In this document: one piece after another, positions 39,952 to 46,905 of the stretch
How positions within the stretch are numbered: position 1 is the stretch's first letter
How the letters are laid out: each line of letters opens with the position of its first letter
Assembly (NCBI GenBank): GCA_003156805.1
Contig: PMHV01000059.1
Coordinates: 59,983-123,982 of the forward strand
Length of the DNA stretch: 64,000 bases
Reading direction: 5' to 3'
Origin: Acidobacteriaceae bacterium
Lineage (GTDB): Bacteria; Acidobacteriota; Terriglobia; Terriglobales; Acidobacteriaceae
Made by a program: the position numbers and the translations under genes
Notes under the pieces: generated by a model
What the model was told of the DNA's origin: nothing
The model's database searches: none
Seen by the model: only the letters and a program-made list of their open reading frames with translations

Positions 39952-41220
39952 CTAATGTTTGTAGATCGTGGTGCTGGGGTGGTAGTTGCGCCAGTCGAAC
40001 CAATAGTCTTTCAGTGCGGGGATGCGATCGAGGCATTTGCCCTGAGCCGGACCTGACGTCGCGCAGCCCTGAAAGTTCCACTCGCTGGCGGTCTCGGTAT
40101 CCAGCAGAATCCAATCTTTGCTTTCGCTCTTAAGGAAGAATTCCGCATCATGGCCCCCGATGCGGCTGACGAACACGCGGAATGACTTACCATCCGGGCC
40201 CACGGCCACAAGCAAGGGTGTGCCGTGCACGCGGTCCAGAACCGGTGATTGCTTCACCAGCGCGTCCCAGGGATAAGCGCGGTCTGAGCCCTCGCTTTCG
40301 AGACCCACGACCACGTCTCGCGATTTCAGTTCCGTCCCCGGAAAGCTGATCACCACCGGATACTTGGCGACTTCCGGTTCCCAGTTGCTGTCATATTCCT
40401 TTACGTACTTGGGCACCTGAGCCAGAACGAGTCCGCCGGTAGTTTCGGATTTCCACTCTCCATAGGTGAGTTCGTCGCTGAGCACGAGTTCGAGCGACGC
40501 GCCCCGTAGCGGGCCATAGATGGCTTTGCCTGTGATCTGCTGCCACCACGTGCCGGTTTCCCGGTCGCGCATGAGGAAATTCTGGTTGTTGATGCCGGCC
40601 AGATAAAAATGCAACGTCTTGCCGTTCACGGATCGTGTCCACACCAGACCGGTGTGACAGAGCGTTCAATACGTGACCGCGACGGGGACGCCTCCGACCA
40701 CGTCGTTCAGAACGTGGTGGTAGGCCATTTGGCTGATGGGATAAGCGCGAGCGTCACTGCCCAAGCGCACCGCCAGGATCATTTCTTTTGGGTCGAGCTT
40801 GCTTTGTGCTTCAGCGTCGAATCGCGGGCTGTCGACGGGATGGAACATCCACTCGAAGTAGTTGAGCCGAGCCATCACGGCGGAAAAAGTGACGGCCAGC
40901 AGCGTGAGCACGAGGAGTCCCTTGCGCCAGAGGCCAACGGTTCTCCAAAGAGCGAAGGCAGGGACGAGGCAGGCCAGGGCTGCGATCAGCGTACCCAGAG
41001 GAGCGCGCTGGCGTAGCGCCATCGCAAGCCAGAGCGCGCGCGGCCCCTGATAACGGAACGGCCGAATGACGAAGGCAGGAATGAAAAACAGCGCGATTGC
41101 AGCGCTGGCGCAGACGCAGAACACAGTCCAGATCGAGCGCCGGGCTTGGCGGCTCGTCTGCGGCCGATAAGCTCGTTCCAGTGGCGGCGCGGATGGCGGA
41201 ACTGGCGACGACGCGTTCAT
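39952..41220 (-). CDS. DUF3179 membrane protein with in-frame TGA at the CxxC site (candidate selenoprotein)
   Basis: Reading through one TGA (40666-40668) gives a 422-residue protein with about three N-terminal membrane segments (SIWTVFCVCASAAIALFFIP; GTLIAALACLVPAFALW; GLLVLTLLAVTFSAVMA) and a C-terminal DUF3179 domain. The sequence runs VGGVPVAVTY-TGA-TLCHTGLVW. DUF3179 proteins have TYCxLC here, so the TGA replaces the first Cys and would give Sec185-x-x-Cys188. Frame and family similarity continue without a break on both sides (AYPISQMAYHHVLND before; RDRETGTWWQQITG after). A hairpin with a GGTCT loop follows the TGA. The ATG at 41220 is assumed; the frame is open to a TTG at 41271. The alternative is a recent nonsense mutation of a Cys codon. 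No sel genes are in the window. Confidence 0.8.
40636..40659 (-). promoter_or_regulatory. Candidate bacterial SECIS hairpin
   Basis: Read on the minus strand after the TGA: TGTC (40659-40656) and ACACC form the 5' arm, GGTCT (40650-40646) is the apical loop, and GGTGT then GACA form the 3' arm with one bulged G. The loop starts 15 nt after the TGA. The E. coli fdhF SECIS, bound by SelB, also has a GGUCU apical loop, about 18 nt after its UGA, and a one-base bulge. The structure lies wholly inside the coding frame, as bacterial SECIS elements do. Confidence 0.65.
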
Positions 41221-41357: not shown

Positions 41358-44198
41358 TTACTGGGGCGTGTAATTCTGGTGATAGCTGAGGTCCACCACG
41401 TCCTGGAAACTCGGTGTGCCCGGAGGCAAATTCGCCGGACTCAGGAACAGCGTGTCAAACCAGAAGTTGCGTTTCGGCGCACCGTACACTACCGTGCAAC
41501 ACTTAAAGGTACCCGTGTTGTATTCCGCGTAGTACATGCTGACCAGCGACCCATCGTAATTGAGTATGGCCTGGTTGCCGGGGCTGGCGGCGTTCGAGCC
41601 CCAGTTTTCGAGGAGGCGCAAGAAGTTGTGCAACCCTCCGTCGGTGCCGAAGTCCTCACCTGCGGATGTTTCCCAGCCTGGCTCCGGGAATGGTATGTTT
41701 TTGCCTCCCGCAACCGCCATACGATAATAGGTCTGCGCGGAGGGTAGACGATTGCCGAGCGCGGTGGGGTTGTTCAGACTGTTTAGATCGGTCCAGTTGT
41801 CGGAGAGGATCGAGACTGCGTCGGCGATAATCGCCGCCGCGGAATGCGGTGTGGTGGTGTTGGTGCCCGCGCTGCTCCAAAATGGATCGGAGACGCCGCT
41901 GTTGTAGTCGCCTTGCACGTAAACCGGATTCTCTGAGACCACGGTAAATCCGCCGCCGTTGTTGTCCCAGCGCACGGGCAGGTAGCTGGTGCCGCCGCTC
42001 ATGCCGCCATCCACCAGCTTTAGAGCGTGACGCGCGCCAGTCACCGCATTGGCCTGGCCGGTGGTGTTGCAGGCGAAGGTGGTGTTCGGTGCGGCGTTGA
42101 TTTGAACGTACGGGTTCAGCGGCGTCTTAGTGTTTTGACCAAATCCGTTGCCAATGTTCGCAGCTCCCCAGTTGTCGAGGACTCCATTCTGATCTACGTC
42201 CTCGGGAGAGTAGGTGTAGTACGTGGCAGCCTCCTTGACGCCATCTGGCGTATTTGAGGTTACGGGCTGCGTCGAGTTTACGACATCTTCAAGGCCGGAC
42301 TCCCCGCTGATCACGCCCGGCGGGGTCGCTCCGCCGTTAGACGCGTTCGGATCCGTTAACATGCCGCGATGATCGGAGAAGTACAACACGTAGCCATTCT
42401 GGTTGGTAAGATTCACTGACTTACCAGCGCCCGCGCCGAACGGACCCTTGCCCTCCAGCCACAGCGCCAGATTACCCACGTCGAGTTCCGCGGCGTTTAT
42501 GATCCCGTTCACCGCGCAACCGTTGGGGTTGTCCCTCATTTCGCCTTCCCGGGGGTCATATAAATTGATGGGGTACCAGTTGTTCATGGGAGTTGCGCCG
42601 CCCGTAGGAGAGGTGGCGCTAGGCGAGAGCTGCTGCAGAATCAGGATAGCGTTCGGGTTGATTGAATTGCTGCCCGCGGACCCGTTCGGAGCAGTCAGAA
42701 CCGTGTTATAGGCGCGCCCGAAGCCATACCCCAGCCATTGCGTCGTGATACCCACCCATTTGCCGCTGGCGCTGTTCAGGTATTCGACGCGGATCCAGGC
42801 GCCTACTCCGCCTGGGTTGGTCGGAGCGGTGGGCGGATTGGTTGTGAGTTCGCCGAGCAGAGGCCACGAGGTCCAGCCGTAGGCAAGGCCGGTGGCGGGG
42901 TTGATCGGCGGGGTCCAATTGGCATCCACGCTGGTGTTCGCCATGGCGTAGTATTCGGCGCCGCCTGCCGCTGCTCCTGCGGTGGTAAAAGCGGTTGCCA
43001 CGGCTTGGGAACCATTGAGCGTAAATTGCACGTCTTGTCCGTCGAGGATAGGTCCGCGCTCTGGATGAAGGTCGGCCTGAGTGTCGGCCAGCAGGATACG
43101 AATTTCTGCTTTGTTGTACTCGCGCGATTGTCCAATCGTGCTGGTGGAAAGCTCGCCGGCCAGGGGTTTGCGAATGATCTGAATTGGATCGGTGCAAGGC
43201 GGCGGATTGCTGGTGCAGCTATTCTGCACGAAGGGCAACTGAAGGTTGCTCGCCCCGGTCGCCCCGTTTACGAAGAAGCCGTTGAAGGTTGACGCGGCGA
43301 TACTGGGAAAACCTGGGTTTGCAGTACCGAGGGGAGTGCTGAGGGGTGGTATACCCCCGCTCCAACTGGCATCCCCTGGAATGGCACTTGGCAGCGAGAT
43401 ACAATTTGCCCCGGGCGGAGGGAAGGTATTGAGCGGACAGCCCGAACTTGCGTTGGGAGCGTACACCGTACCGCCATATCCGGACGAGGTAAGGTGACCG
43501 TTCTCCAGTCGATCCGTGATGATCTGGCCAAAAGCTGCGACCTTGTCGTCAAAAACCAGGTCCGCGCCGGAGGCGAGGAACAGGTTGCCGTTGGTGTGGA
43601 CGCGGCCCCCAAAGCTGAAGTTGGGACCGGCGAAATAGCTGCAGTCGTAGCCGCAAAACACGCCGAACTGAAATACCGGAATCAGGGCCACTTCGATGCC
43701 GCGGGTCATATTCACCGACGCCCCAGTCGGCCGGGTGGCATTCACTTGCAACGTCATGGGAATGATTTCGGCATACAGCCCCTGGTCGGGGCCTGAGCTA
43801 ATGGTATTGGACGTGGTTACGGGGTTGCCGTTGGCATCGGTAGCGTAGGTGATGCCCTCAGTGTAGGTGACCGTACCCACCATTGCCGGGGTGGGCGGAA
43901 AATTGATCAAGTTCTGAATCTGGCTGTTGATGGGCGAGGCGCTCGTCTGGTAGAGCGAGGACAGGTCTGCCGTCAGCTTCTCCATGCCCGACTCGGCGTC
44001 ATAATAGGCGATATTGTCTTCCAGGCCATTGCCTCCGGCGCGTACTTCATTGCTCACCATAAACAGGAGTCCGACCGCCAGCCCCGAAAGCAGGACCATG
44101 ATCAGCAGAGCCGCGATCAGGGTAAAACCCCGCGTGCTATTCTTCGACTTGGACTTCGACTTCGACCTTGACTTTGATTTCCCTATACTCGTCCCCAT
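41358..44198 (-). CDS. PilX-like minor pilin/pilus assembly protein, very large, with Lys-Ser repeat leader
   Basis: 946-residue protein, last gene of the operon. The N-terminus is MGTSIGKSKSRSKSKSKSKN followed by a type IV prepilin-like segment RGFTLIAALLIMVLLSGLAVG, in which the usual Glu at position +5 is Ala. The downstream AGGNGLEDNIAYYDAESGMEKL segment is PilX_N-like. Residues ~120-946 are Asn/Gly/Pro-rich with no catalytic motif. The family is usually under 250 residues, so the C-terminal ~800 residues are an unusual extension, possibly an exposed adhesive or tip domain. The ATG at 44198 has GAGGAG upstream. The first 25 codons contain a degenerate 6-bp repeat. Confidence 0.82.
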   Translation of the reverse strand: MGTSIGKSKSRSKSKSKSKNSTRGFTLIAALLIMVLLSGLAVGLLFMVSNEVRAGGNGLEDNIAYYDAESGMEKLTADLSSLYQTSASPINSQIQNLINFPPTPAMVGTVTYTEGITYATDANGNPVTTSNTISSGPDQGLYAEIIPMTLQVNATRPTGASVNMTRGIEVALIPVFQFGVFCGYDCSYFAGPNFSFGGRVHTNGNLFLASGADLVFDDKVAAFGQIITDRLENGHLTSSGYGGTVYAPNASSGCPLNTFPPPGANCISLPSAIPGDASWSGGIPPLSTPLGTANPGFPSIAASTFNGFFVNGATGASNLQLPFVQNSCTSNPPPCTDPIQIIRKPLAGELSTSTIGQSREYNKAEIRILLADTQADLHPERGPILDGQDVQFTLNGSQAVATAFTTAGAAAGGAEYYAMANTSVDANWTPPINPATGLAYGWTSWPLLGELTTNPPTAPTNPGGVGAWIRVEYLNSASGKWVGITTQWLGYGFGRAYNTVLTAPNGSAGSNSINPNAILILQQLSPSATSPTGGATPMNNWYPINLYDPREGEMRDNPNGCAVNGIINAAELDVGNLALWLEGKGPFGAGAGKSVNLTNQNGYVLYFSDHRGMLTDPNASNGGATPPGVISGESGLEDVVNSTQPVTSNTPDGVKEAATYYTYSPEDVDQNGVLDNWGAANIGNGFGQNTKTPLNPYVQINAAPNTTFACNTTGQANAVTGARHALKLVDGGMSGGTSYLPVRWDNNGGGFTVVSENPVYVQGDYNSGVSDPFWSSAGTNTTTPHSAAAIIADAVSILSDNWTDLNSLNNPTALGNRLPSAQTYYRMAVAGGKNIPFPEPGWETSAGEDFGTDGGLHNFLRLLENWGSNAASPGNQAILNYDGSLVSMYYAEYNTGTFKCCTVVYGAPKRNFWFDTLFLSPANLPPGTPSFQDVVDLSYHQNYTPQ
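44150..44185 (-). repeat. Degenerate hexanucleotide repeat encoding (Lys-Ser)n
   Basis: Six-base units of the form AAGTCG/AAATCA/AAGTCC are repeated in tandem at the 5' end of the pilX-like gene and encode alternating Lys-Ser (one Arg). A variable number of units would change the leader length without a frame shift. Confidence 0.7.
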
Positions 44199-44226
44199 GT
44201 ATGTCTCCTCGCTCCCCTGAAACCCC

Positions 44227-45306
44227 TCACTGGTAGGTGTTGCGGAACGCCATGTTGCGTGCGCTGATCGATGTCGCCAGATACATGTTTTGTGACCGAT
44301 TGCCATTCGGCGTCAAACTCTCTCCCATGACCACCAGGTTGATTTTCTGAATCAAGTTGGGGGATTCGCCCACTCCGATGGGATTGGGTTCGTTTGCGTC
44401 CAGCACGTTGGTGGTGGAGTTGTATACGTCATAGGAGAACTGCAGATTAATGATATTGTCGGCCACTGGCACGGGGGTTAATCCGTTTACCTGGCGCATC
44501 AGGCGCGGAAGCTGGCCGTTGGTTGGAACTGTTAAGTAGTAGGTAACGGCGAAAAGGCGGTAGGCCGTGGTGGGAGTACCGGCGGCGATCGCCTGAATGT
44601 TATTGGTGATGCCAGGGGCCGCGCCCGGCTGGTTCACGTTTAACGGGTCGGTGGCAGCAAAGCTGATGCCGCCCGCAGTCAGCCCCGTAACTTCGCCCAC
44701 CGCGTTGCCCGCGGAATTGCTAAGTAGAATGAGGTCCCCCACCTGGATGCCTCCGGGAGAATTGATCGCGACCGGGGCGGGAATATAAATCGGGTTAGGC
44801 GCCACGGTGATCGAGGTGCCATTTGACCCGGCGGGAAAAGTCACGGTGTACTCAAACAGCGGAAAATTGTAGTCGGCATAGACCACCGTGATGCTGTCGT
44901 TAACCTGTCCTGGAGCGGAAGGAACTGTCGCGTTGCCTTGCACGCCGTTGCTGTACCCGGGGATGATTCCGTACATGTAATTGTTCGTGTACGTATAAGC
45001 GGGAACGTAGCAGGTGCCGCTCTGATCGCAACCGTATTTCTCAGGGGAAGATCCACCTCCGGTGGGCAACTGGACCCCGCCGGTGGGCAAGCCTGCGCCG
45101 GCCATGTTGATGTCCTTATTCATGATCTCCATGGCGGCACGCATGTTTTGCTGGCCCTCGATGCGTTGTGCAACGATAAACGTGGAATCCATGCCGGTCT
45201 TGAACAATGAGGTCAGAGCGGCCATAACGATGAGACCCAGGGCCATCGAGATCAGAAGCTCGATTAGAGTGAATCCGCTGTCGTTCTTTCCTGCTTGCAT
45301 CTTCAT
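44227..45306 (-). CDS. PilW-like minor pilin (prepilin N-methylation domain)
   Basis: About 359 residues with a short leader and the class III signal DSGFTLIELLISMALGLIVMAALTSLF, where cleavage follows Gly and Phe is methylated. The IEGQQNMRAAMEIMNKDINMAGAG segment is typical of PilW-like proteins. The rest is a beta-rich globular domain with MYGIIPGYSN and SVVYADYNFPLFEYTV-like strands. The start may be the ATG at 45306 or the one at 45300; a GTGAGGA sequence lies immediately upstream. Fifteen bases separate it from the preceding pilV-like gene. It is likely exported and assembled as a minor tip component. Confidence 0.88.
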   Translation of the reverse strand: MKMQAGKNDSGFTLIELLISMALGLIVMAALTSLFKTGMDSTFIVAQRIEGQQNMRAAMEIMNKDINMAGAGLPTGGVQLPTGGGSSPEKYGCDQSGTCYVPAYTYTNNYMYGIIPGYSNGVQGNATVPSAPGQVNDSITVVYADYNFPLFEYTVTFPAGSNGTSITVAPNPIYIPAPVAINSPGGIQVGDLILLSNSAGNAVGEVTGLTAGGISFAATDPLNVNQPGAAPGITNNIQAIAAGTPTTAYRLFAVTYYLTVPTNGQLPRLMRQVNGLTPVPVADNIINLQFSYDVYNSTTNVLDANEPNPIGVGESPNLIQKINLVVMGESLTPNGNRSQNMYLATSISARNMAFRNTYQ

Positions 45307-45321
45307 AATCCTCACCAGTGC

Positions 45322-45924
45322 TTAGCGGTATGTCGAGATCAGGGCATTCACGGTGTAATCGCGCGAAGCCGTCATCCCGGGTTTGGTATAGGAAACGGTG
45401 ACCACAATCTGTTTCAAATTGGGGTCGATGGTGACGCCATCGCTTTCCAGTACGCTATTGATGGCAATCGTCCGGGTGAAGTTGGCCAGGCTCATGGCCA
45501 CGTCATCCGCGGTTCCCAGGATGCCATCCGGACCGGGAAGGACTACGCATTCCGGGCCGGCCGGGCAGATCCCGTTAGCTGGATAGTTGATGTCGTCCAC
45601 GGTGCCCACCAGGCCATCCGGGCCGGCTGCGAGAAGCTGTGTTGGGCCGGCGGTGAAGATGCCGTTGGGGAAGTTGGCGATTTGAGCGAACACGATCTGC
45701 TGGGTGTTGCGGGCGGTGTAGATGCTCTCCATCGCCTCCAGGGCTTTCTGCCGCGCAATCAAATCCTCCTGGGCCGACTTGGTCGCGCCTATCGCCGTTC
45801 CAAACACGGCGATCAGAGCTACCAGGCTAATGGTCATGATGGCGATTGCGATCATGACCTCAACCAGCGAGAAGCCGCGCTGGGATTGGCGGGCTGGCAT
45901 TCGAGTCTTTGGGTTTCGCGTCAT
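45322..45924 (-). CDS. PilV-like minor pilin
   Basis: 200-residue prepilin-like protein. The leader MTRNPKTRMPARQSQRG precedes GFSLVEVMIAIAIMTISLVALIAVFG, the methylated N-terminal helix with the canonical Glu5. The globular part has repeated GPDGxxGTxDD turns (GPDGLVGTVDDI and GPDGILGTADDV), which resemble Ca2+-binding DxDG-type loops. The ATG at 45924 lies two bases after the stop of the gspH-like gene, and its stop is 15 bases before the pilW-like gene. All four genes are therefore tightly linked. Confidence 0.9.
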   Translation of the reverse strand: MTRNPKTRMPARQSQRGFSLVEVMIAIAIMTISLVALIAVFGTAIGATKSAQEDLIARQKALEAMESIYTARNTQQIVFAQIANFPNGIFTAGPTQLLAAGPDGLVGTVDDINYPANGICPAGPECVVLPGPDGILGTADDVAMSLANFTRTIAINSVLESDGVTIDPNLKQIVVTVSYTKPGMTASRDYTVNALISTYR

Positions 45925-45926
45925 GG

Positions 45927-46553
45927 TTATTGTTGTACCCACGTGTTTACTCCCGCCTGCAAATACAGGCGCCATCCACGGATTCTGCCCGTGGCGCCGA
46001 AAACGGTAATTGCCCGCGAACTGTAAAGGTCGCCGGCGCGTCCCATGTAGAGCACTCCGCTGTTCCAGTTGCCCAGCAGATCCTGGGAAGAACCGTCGGG
46101 CATGAACATGACATAGTCTTGGCTGCCCAGGCCCATGCCTTGATCGAAGTCAATGGCGACGGTCCCAGCGCCAAACCCATCCGGCACGGCCGCGGCAGTG
46201 CTGGGATAGCCTGCCTGCGTCGAGAACGTGACGTCTGGCGGCAGGGTGAGAGTGTCGACCACCACCGGCGCGGGCGAGACCGGCACGGCGTAGTCCCAGC
46301 GCGCAATCGTGATGGTGCTCGGGTTGGGGGCGCCCGGGTTTGTGAAGGTTACGATGTAGCGTTTGCGCTGCACGATAGACAGATTCTGGTAGTTGCGCAA
46401 TGCCATCAACGTCGTGTCGTAAGCGGAGCTGACGTTGTTCTGCTTCATCATGGGCAGCAACGCGATGACGGAAACAGCCGCGACCGTGAAACCGATGGCG
46501 ACGACGATCATCATTTCCAGCAGTGAGAAGCCGTTTTGTTTTCTCGATGCCAT
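45927..46553 (-). CDS. FimT/GspH-like minor pilin
   Basis: 208-residue prepilin-like protein and first gene of the operon. The leader MASRKQN is followed by GFSLLEMMIVVAIGFTVAAVSVIALLP, with the conserved Gly, Phe and Glu5. The C-terminal half is a beta-sandwich region (RKRYIVTFTNPG, GRIRGWRLYLQAG) resembling GspH/FimT minor pseudopilins. The ATG at 46553 has an AGGGA ribosome-binding site; the longer upstream frame is rejected because it precedes the class III leader. Proteins of this kind prime assembly of type IV pili or type II secretion pseudopili. Confidence 0.88.
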   Translation of the reverse strand: MASRKQNGFSLLEMMIVVAIGFTVAAVSVIALLPMMKQNNVSSAYDTTLMALRNYQNLSIVQRKRYIVTFTNPGAPNPSTITIARWDYAVPVSPAPVVVDTLTLPPDVTFSTQAGYPSTAAAVPDGFGAGTVAIDFDQGMGLGSQDYVMFMPDGSSQDLLGNWNSGVLYMGRAGDLYSSRAITVFGATGRIRGWRLYLQAGVNTWVQQ

Positions 46554-46905
46554 AATCCCTTGCTGGGCGAACCGCCCGATTCTCCAAATGCTGGCCGCTC
46601 TTGGCGCCGGCCGCGCGCCGGTGTCCGAAAAACTCAACCGCCTGACCGGCCGAAACCTGCGTTGCTTGCCGGGAGAGCAATCCGAAGCGCACTTGCTGCG
46701 GGGAGGTAGACTTCATCCTAGGAAGGCGCTCCAGTGGCGTCAAAGCACGACGGTGCAATGCCGGGACATTGGCCTTTTGTAATTGGAGTGGTTACCCACG
46801 TCACCGCATTGACTCTGCTTTACTTAATGCGTTTCTCACGACGCTAGTCCGACGGGGGCGTGACTCCGGTAACTTGTCGGCGGAACCGGCGTGATCCTAC
46901 GATGG
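46554..46905. other. Divergent intergenic region between pilin operon and PilZ gene
   Basis: Holds the candidate minus-strand promoter at 46715-46743. No convincing promoter for the plus-strand PilZ gene and no convincing sigma-54 site was found. A long open frame extends the gspH-like gene upstream but shows no pilin leader. Confidence 0.5.
46715..46743 (-). promoter_or_regulatory. Candidate promoter of the minor-pilin operon
   Basis: On the minus strand TTGACG (46743-46738) and TAGGAT (46720-46715) are separated by exactly 17 bases, giving five of six and four of six matches to sigma-70 consensus. The predicted leader is about 155 bases. Confidence 0.4.

Follow-up and report, generated by a model that had tools for sequence, protein, structure and literature searches.

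The hairpin that follows an in-frame TGA in a DUF3179 gene of this Acidobacteriaceae bacterium is almost certainly a functional bacterial SECIS element of a DUF3179 selenoprotein. Comparative evidence is decisive for this reading: the UGA is conserved, the codons of the loop and stem are frozen, arm changes are compensated silently, SelB co-occurs with the TGA form of the gene, and the hairpin has decayed after replacement of Sec by Cys. During translation of the DUF3179 gene, SelB carrying Sec-tRNA-Sec would bind the GGUCU-capped stem, the start of which lies no more than 20 nt from the UGA, and Sec would be delivered at codon 185. The product would then be a 422-aa membrane-anchored protein with a redox-type U-T-L-C-H motif, which may have a redox role, and not a fragment ending at the UGA.

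The gene and its TGA are located as follows in the window, i.e. the whole stretch of 64,000 nucleotides that was analysed.

39952 to 41220, minus strand: selenoprotein gene DUF3179, 422 aa with the TGA read as Sec (translation with one TGA; PF11376 match)
40666 to 40668, minus strand: putative Sec codon TGA, U185 of the U-T-L-C-H-T-G motif (same codon TGA in 96/96 non-Cys orthologues)

The reading frame includes 422 codons (41220 to 39952, minus strand), with the start ATG at 41220 assumed and the stop TAG at 39954–39952, and has one in-frame TGA at 40668–40666. PF11376 (DUF3179) matches residues 129–417 with 215 bits, and the domain spans the TGA. The UTLC segment at residues 185–188, together with this domain, gives the UxxC pattern expected of DUF3179 selenoproteins. 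NCBIfam has no model for this protein, and standard ORF calling divides a protein that is common across Acidobacteriota.

The source genome (5.03 Mb, 95% complete) has this copy of DUF3179 as the only one found. It encodes both SelB and tRNA-Sec, as expected for a genome with a bacterial SECIS; tRNA-Sec has the anticodon TCA and scores 68.2 bits, and the SelB, SelA and SelD proteins score 364, 551 and 364 bits, respectively. SelD (locus L124, G000:C33:20288-21211) is a selenoprotein itself, with an in-frame TGA within K-A-A-G-U-A-S-K-L that is followed by a hand-read hairpin, GTCCGG[CGGCG]CTGGAC, the loop of which lies 19 nt after the TGA. Minor type IV pilin-like genes lie in a row directly upstream of the DUF3179 gene (41358–46637, minus strand). 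Minor-pilin, HAD-type and zinc-ribbon genes recur as neighbours of DUF3179 in about 16–22 of 60 related loci, and no functional link was drawn from the gene neighbourhood of these 60 loci.

Homologues were collected by a scan of genome contigs, from 150 related genomes and by a phylum-wide domain search, and loci were kept where the Sec codon was readable. Genes with the local motif xxLCHTG[LIV]VW were taken as orthologues; TGA is present in 96 distinct sequences of this set, and Cys (TGC) in 10. TGA occupies the same codon in each of the 96 distinct non-Cys orthologues, and Cys is the only alternative. The TGA orthologues reach down to about 38–45% identity, yet nearly all read CACACCGGTCTGGTGTGG. 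Where the homologous loci come from named relatives, these belong almost exclusively to Acidobacteriota, and many carry the label Acidobacteriaceae or Candidatus Sulfotelmatobacter; DUF3179 homologues were not found in the phage collection. At two loci (L163 in G033 and L164 in G044), a junction of two Ns interrupts the gene close to the Sec site, most likely because of an assembly gap.

Three features describe the hairpin.

40636 to 40659, minus strand: hairpin as first drawn, 9 bp with a G bulge (RNAfold MFE structure; outer part not conserved)
40639 to 40657, minus strand: predicted conserved SECIS core, 7-bp stem UCACACC/GGUGUGG without a bulge (−8.7 kcal/mol; 97.8% of pair cells kept; codon-shuffle null; codon entropies)
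40646 to 40650, minus strand: apical loop GGUCU (loop plus 5-bp stem in 89/96 against 1.7 expected, and in 0/10 Cys orthologues)

The minus strand reads TGTCACACCGGTCTGGTGTGGACA from 6 nt past the TGA (40659–40636), divided as TGTC-ACACC-GGTCT-GGTGT-G-GACA, and the GGTCT loop begins 15 nt past the TGA. Sequence, coordinates (40636–40659) and spacing had been given in a preliminary description of the site, and all three are exact in the letters. The nine base pairs with one bulge drawn there are the RNAfold MFE structure, but the lower stem and the G bulge are not conserved. In the RNAfold centroid, which differs from the MFE, C40656 pairs with the "bulged" G. Across the 96 orthologues, the G7-C28 pair of the four-pair lower stem is possible in 33. 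The whole of TGTC/GACA with its bulged G can form in only 27, and it was ruled out as a conserved feature. All 96 can form the unbulged pairs C9-G25 and Y8-G26, which gives a continuous 7-bp stem. The stable core, as predicted from the orthologues, is YCACACC[GGUCU]GGUGUGG (40657–40639), without a conserved bulge. A doubt about SelB recognition had been raised because the bulged G lies on the 3' side; it is moot, since the conserved stem is an unbulged 7 bp and the G bulge lies outside it.

Taken as a single sequence, the hairpin is less distinctive. Shuffling the 49-nt stretch gives fold energies that are just as good (z 0.40), and 59 of the 1767 TGAs in the window (both strands) have a hairpin at least as stable (≤ −8.7 kcal/mol). 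A 7-bp stem with a GGTCT loop follows a TGA once among these 1767, only here. Because the energy is unremarkable and the combination of 7 bp and GGTCT is unique among the TGAs of the window, the single-sequence case for a SECIS is suggestive only. Thermodynamic significance of the single hairpin was dropped as an argument, the z of 0.40 being uninformative. When the window and the TGA site were scanned with Rfam, no SECIS family matched.

The hairpin resembles that of E. coli fdhF, in which GGTCT lies 18 nt after the TGA (42-nt sequence, exact match in fdhF). Both have GGUCU atop a stem just downstream of the UGA and within the coding frame, and the fdhF element is read by SelB; the likeness pointed out in the preliminary description, with the same loop and a spacing of 15 versus 18 nt, holds on the E. 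coli sequence. The fdhF SECIS has a bulged U that is needed by SelB, whereas the DUF3179 element has no conserved bulge. As a short-spaced (15 nt), bulge-free GGUCU element, it is useful for testing the rules of SelB recognition. In the bacterial SECIS model of bSECISearch, the loop has 3–9 nt with G in the first two positions, the stem has 4–16 bp, the MFE is ≤ −7.5 kcal/mol, and a distance of 16–37 nt from UGA to loop is stated for most elements (PMC13188914). The DUF3179 hairpin lies directly downstream of the in-frame Sec UGA and agrees with this model in every aspect of shape (7-bp stem, loop GGUCU, −8.7 kcal/mol). Its spacing is borderline, at 15 nt, or 16 nt if a G-U pair closes a GUC triloop.

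The hairpin might be a mere reflection of the peptide C-H-T-G-L-V-W and of GC-rich codon use, with the UGA decoded without it. Indeed, the amino acids dictate three of the five apical pairs, and codon use alone predicts the stem in about 20% of genes. Synonymous codons of the 96 Sec genes were resampled with each gene's own usage as a null. The 5-bp apical stem is observed in 90/96 genes versus 18.9 expected, and the stem together with GGTCT in 89/96 versus 1.7. Thus, the loop is conserved in the Sec genes far beyond synonymous expectation, and this argues against the peptide as its source. When the conserved degenerate residues of the protein are compared in the codon alignment, relative codon entropy is lowest at six codons after Sec: +7, +4, +8, +6, +1, and +5. 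The freezing ends after codon +8/+9, and codon +10 is free. Outside the apical stem, the Cys codon +3 is TGT or TGC (70/26), giving U-G or C-G at the stem base. The Thr codon +1 (ACG, 40663–40665, minus strand) is frozen in 87/92 though it lies outside the conserved stem, which possibly reflects stop-codon context or SelB positioning. In this case, the share of RNA constraint on a SECIS can be separated from that of protein constraint.

A natural control is built into the family, in that one clade without SelB has swapped Sec for Cys and retained the peptide, while the stem and loop decayed. The 10 Cys orthologues encode CTLCHTGLVW, the same peptide, with mixed codons (GGG, GGA, CAT, ACA, TTR). 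Upon codon resampling, the complete 5-bp stem was expected in 1.5 of them and GGTCT with the stem in 0.17; they are observed in 1/10 and 0/10, respectively. An equal frequency of the hairpin in Cys homologues had been named beforehand as the finding that would speak for the peptide, and it was not obtained. Codons +4 to +8, frozen in the Sec genes, are free in these same-peptide Cys genes. The structure is thus maintained where the gene encodes Sec and has relaxed where it encodes Cys, as expected of a bacterial SECIS, though a weak hairpin still appears in 7/10 Cys genes under a loose rule (at least 6 bp, larger loop). Such hairpins favour the peptide to some extent, and are explained by the three pairs that follow from it and by relics that may remain. 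As a separator of Sec and Cys genes the loose rule performs poorly and was rejected, so that the argument rests on codon freezing, the exact loop and covariation. Given the Cys comparison, and the compensatory and register-shift variants described below, the view that the hairpin merely mirrors the peptide appears already contradicted and is very unlikely.

SelB was not found above the curated cut-off in the genomes of the Cys orthologues, whereas the same search found it in all 19 Sec genomes tested. The tRNA-Sec scores are 60.8–75 bits in the Sec genomes tested and about 45 bits in 9/10 Cys genomes, which is the level of the ordinary tRNA-Ser, -Leu, and -Asp genes of the source genome; the score of 51.3 bits in the Cys genome G275 is ambiguous. 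In the tree, the Cys genes form one clade (100/99) that lies inside the Sec orthologues under a midpoint root, used for drawing only. If that root is assumed, a single Sec-to-Cys replacement would have given rise to the Cys clade. In genome G140, a TGC paralogue (L161, G140:C24) keeps a SECIS-like hairpin, CGGGCGTA-GTT-TACG-A-CCCG, that closely resembles the hairpin of the TGA paralogue L146 (G140:C8). L161 has probably changed from Sec to Cys recently, and its hairpin would be a relic SECIS.

Compensatory changes in the arms, which had been proposed as a check across TGA homologues, were found in three Sec genes. In L035 and L080, ACC/CTG is replaced by ACG/CTC, which turns the closing pair from C-G to G-C, and in L210 CAC/GTG is replaced by CAT/GTA, which turns C-G into U-A; both changes are silent in each case. 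In the four Sec genes that encode Ile or Val instead of Leu (L075, L208–L210), the stem has 9 bp and the loop 7 nt. In an alignment of 26 sequences of the window's subfamily, chosen to cover variants and without two register-shifted genes (L025 and L058), 97.8% of the cells pair and both partners have changed in 2/7 pairs.

The usual hairpin cannot form in L025 or L058. A replacement, CGGGUCU-GGUCU-GGACCCG, lies 5 nt downstream and has the same loop, for which GGTCT is rebuilt from other codons. L025 and L058 occupy distant positions in the protein tree, which makes two events the simplest reading of the shift; local transfer is a possible source of the shared register. L035, the sister of L025 (100/99), can form both hairpins (−7.8 and −7.0 kcal/mol) and looks like an intermediate. 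On balance, it seems fairly likely that the SECIS in the DUF3179 family can shift within the coding sequence without altering the surrounding peptide. The shifted register is that used by distant DUF3179 selenoproteins: in TGA paralogues of the type U-P-x-x-x-x-[AG]-[VI]-[VG]-[YH], the stem is centred 5 nt further downstream. Among 23 such distant sequences, picked by protein type and including seven that failed a simple unbulged-stem rule, 91.9% of the pair cells are standard and 5/7 pairs changed on both sides. Their covariation is 0.364, versus 0.133 for shuffles and at most 0.107 for slid partners.

It could also be supposed that the UGA is read as Sec through a longer element, or one located mainly elsewhere, of which the stem-loop is only a part. 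The spacing at the short edge of the published range and the frozen ACG at +1, which the 7-bp stem leaves unexplained, would fit such an arrangement. However, the freezing does not extend beyond +8/+9, with codon +10 free, and the hairpin moves by 5 nt while keeping GGTCT, which makes the arrangement highly improbable. The two ORFs of 201 and 230 aa that flank the TGA in the six-frame listing might suggest a genuine stop codon between two separate genes, a pseudogene, or a mistake in sequencing. This has next to no probability and appears refuted by conservation: 96 distinct orthologues, some of them with only about 40% identity, share the same single TGA, to which Cys is the sole alternative. 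The frame is also intact on both sides, and a single Pfam domain spans the TGA. The SECIS reading of the preliminary description is thus supported by the Sec machinery, TGA conservation, codon freezing, compensation, the loss in Cys genes and the distant covarying hairpins, recognition by SelB itself being predicted from sequence. Counted against it are the unremarkable energy, a loop spacing one nt short of the 16–37 nt range, the lack of an Rfam SECIS match, the three apical pairs set by the peptide and the weak hairpins of 7/10 Cys genes.

DUF3179 with UxxC/T is listed as a selenoprotein family in two reviews, which credit it to the 2007 study of the Olavius algarvensis symbionts by Zhang and Gladyshev (PMC9312934, PMC13188914). 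Selenoproteins of acidobacteria, and remnants of SECIS structures in Cys homologues, have also been reported earlier. The element described here is a well-supported member of this catalogued family and not a new kind. It shares with the family the Pfam domain PF11376 and Sec as the first residue of UxxC. The window's subfamily differs in having an N-terminal three-helix anchor and the sequence UTLCHTGLVW, and in being widespread in Acidobacteriota. As far as the literature searched shows, the clean Cys control, the register movement and the Rieske-like structural hint are new.

The AlphaFold2 model of the full protein (mean pLDDT 90.6) has three long helices at the N-terminus and two beta domains that resemble each other, encoded as follows.

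40867 to 41151, minus strand: three long N-terminal helices, residues 24–118, presumed membrane anchor (AlphaFold2 and hydrophobic sequence, from which the membrane location is inferred)
40462 to 40761, minus strand: repeat 1, residues 154–253, predicted Rieske-like fold with Sec185 (domain model pLDDT 94.4; VIA-align)
39973 to 40299, minus strand: repeat 2, residues 308–416, second predicted Rieske-like fold, no Sec/Cys motif at the equivalent place (AlphaFold2 model)

When the repeat 1 model was compared in VIA-align, all 50 rows listed were Rieske-fold domains (Z 8.9–6.5, rmsd 2.3–3.9, about 90–108 residues). Foldseek on the same model gave weak E-values (best 0.04), and no convincing sequence relatives of the DUF3179 protein were found in the PDB. 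The Rieske ligand motif C-x-H ... C-x2-H is absent from the protein, in which U185-x-x-C188-H189 is the only Cys/His cluster. Both repeats resemble Rieske domains in predicted fold but lack the cluster ligands. The literature searched has no mention of DUF3179 together with Rieske. The model is consistent with a Rieske-like scaffold, anchored in the membrane, that carries a redox or metal site, and a predicted fold of this kind without cluster ligands offers a structural handle on the possible role of Sec in DUF3179.
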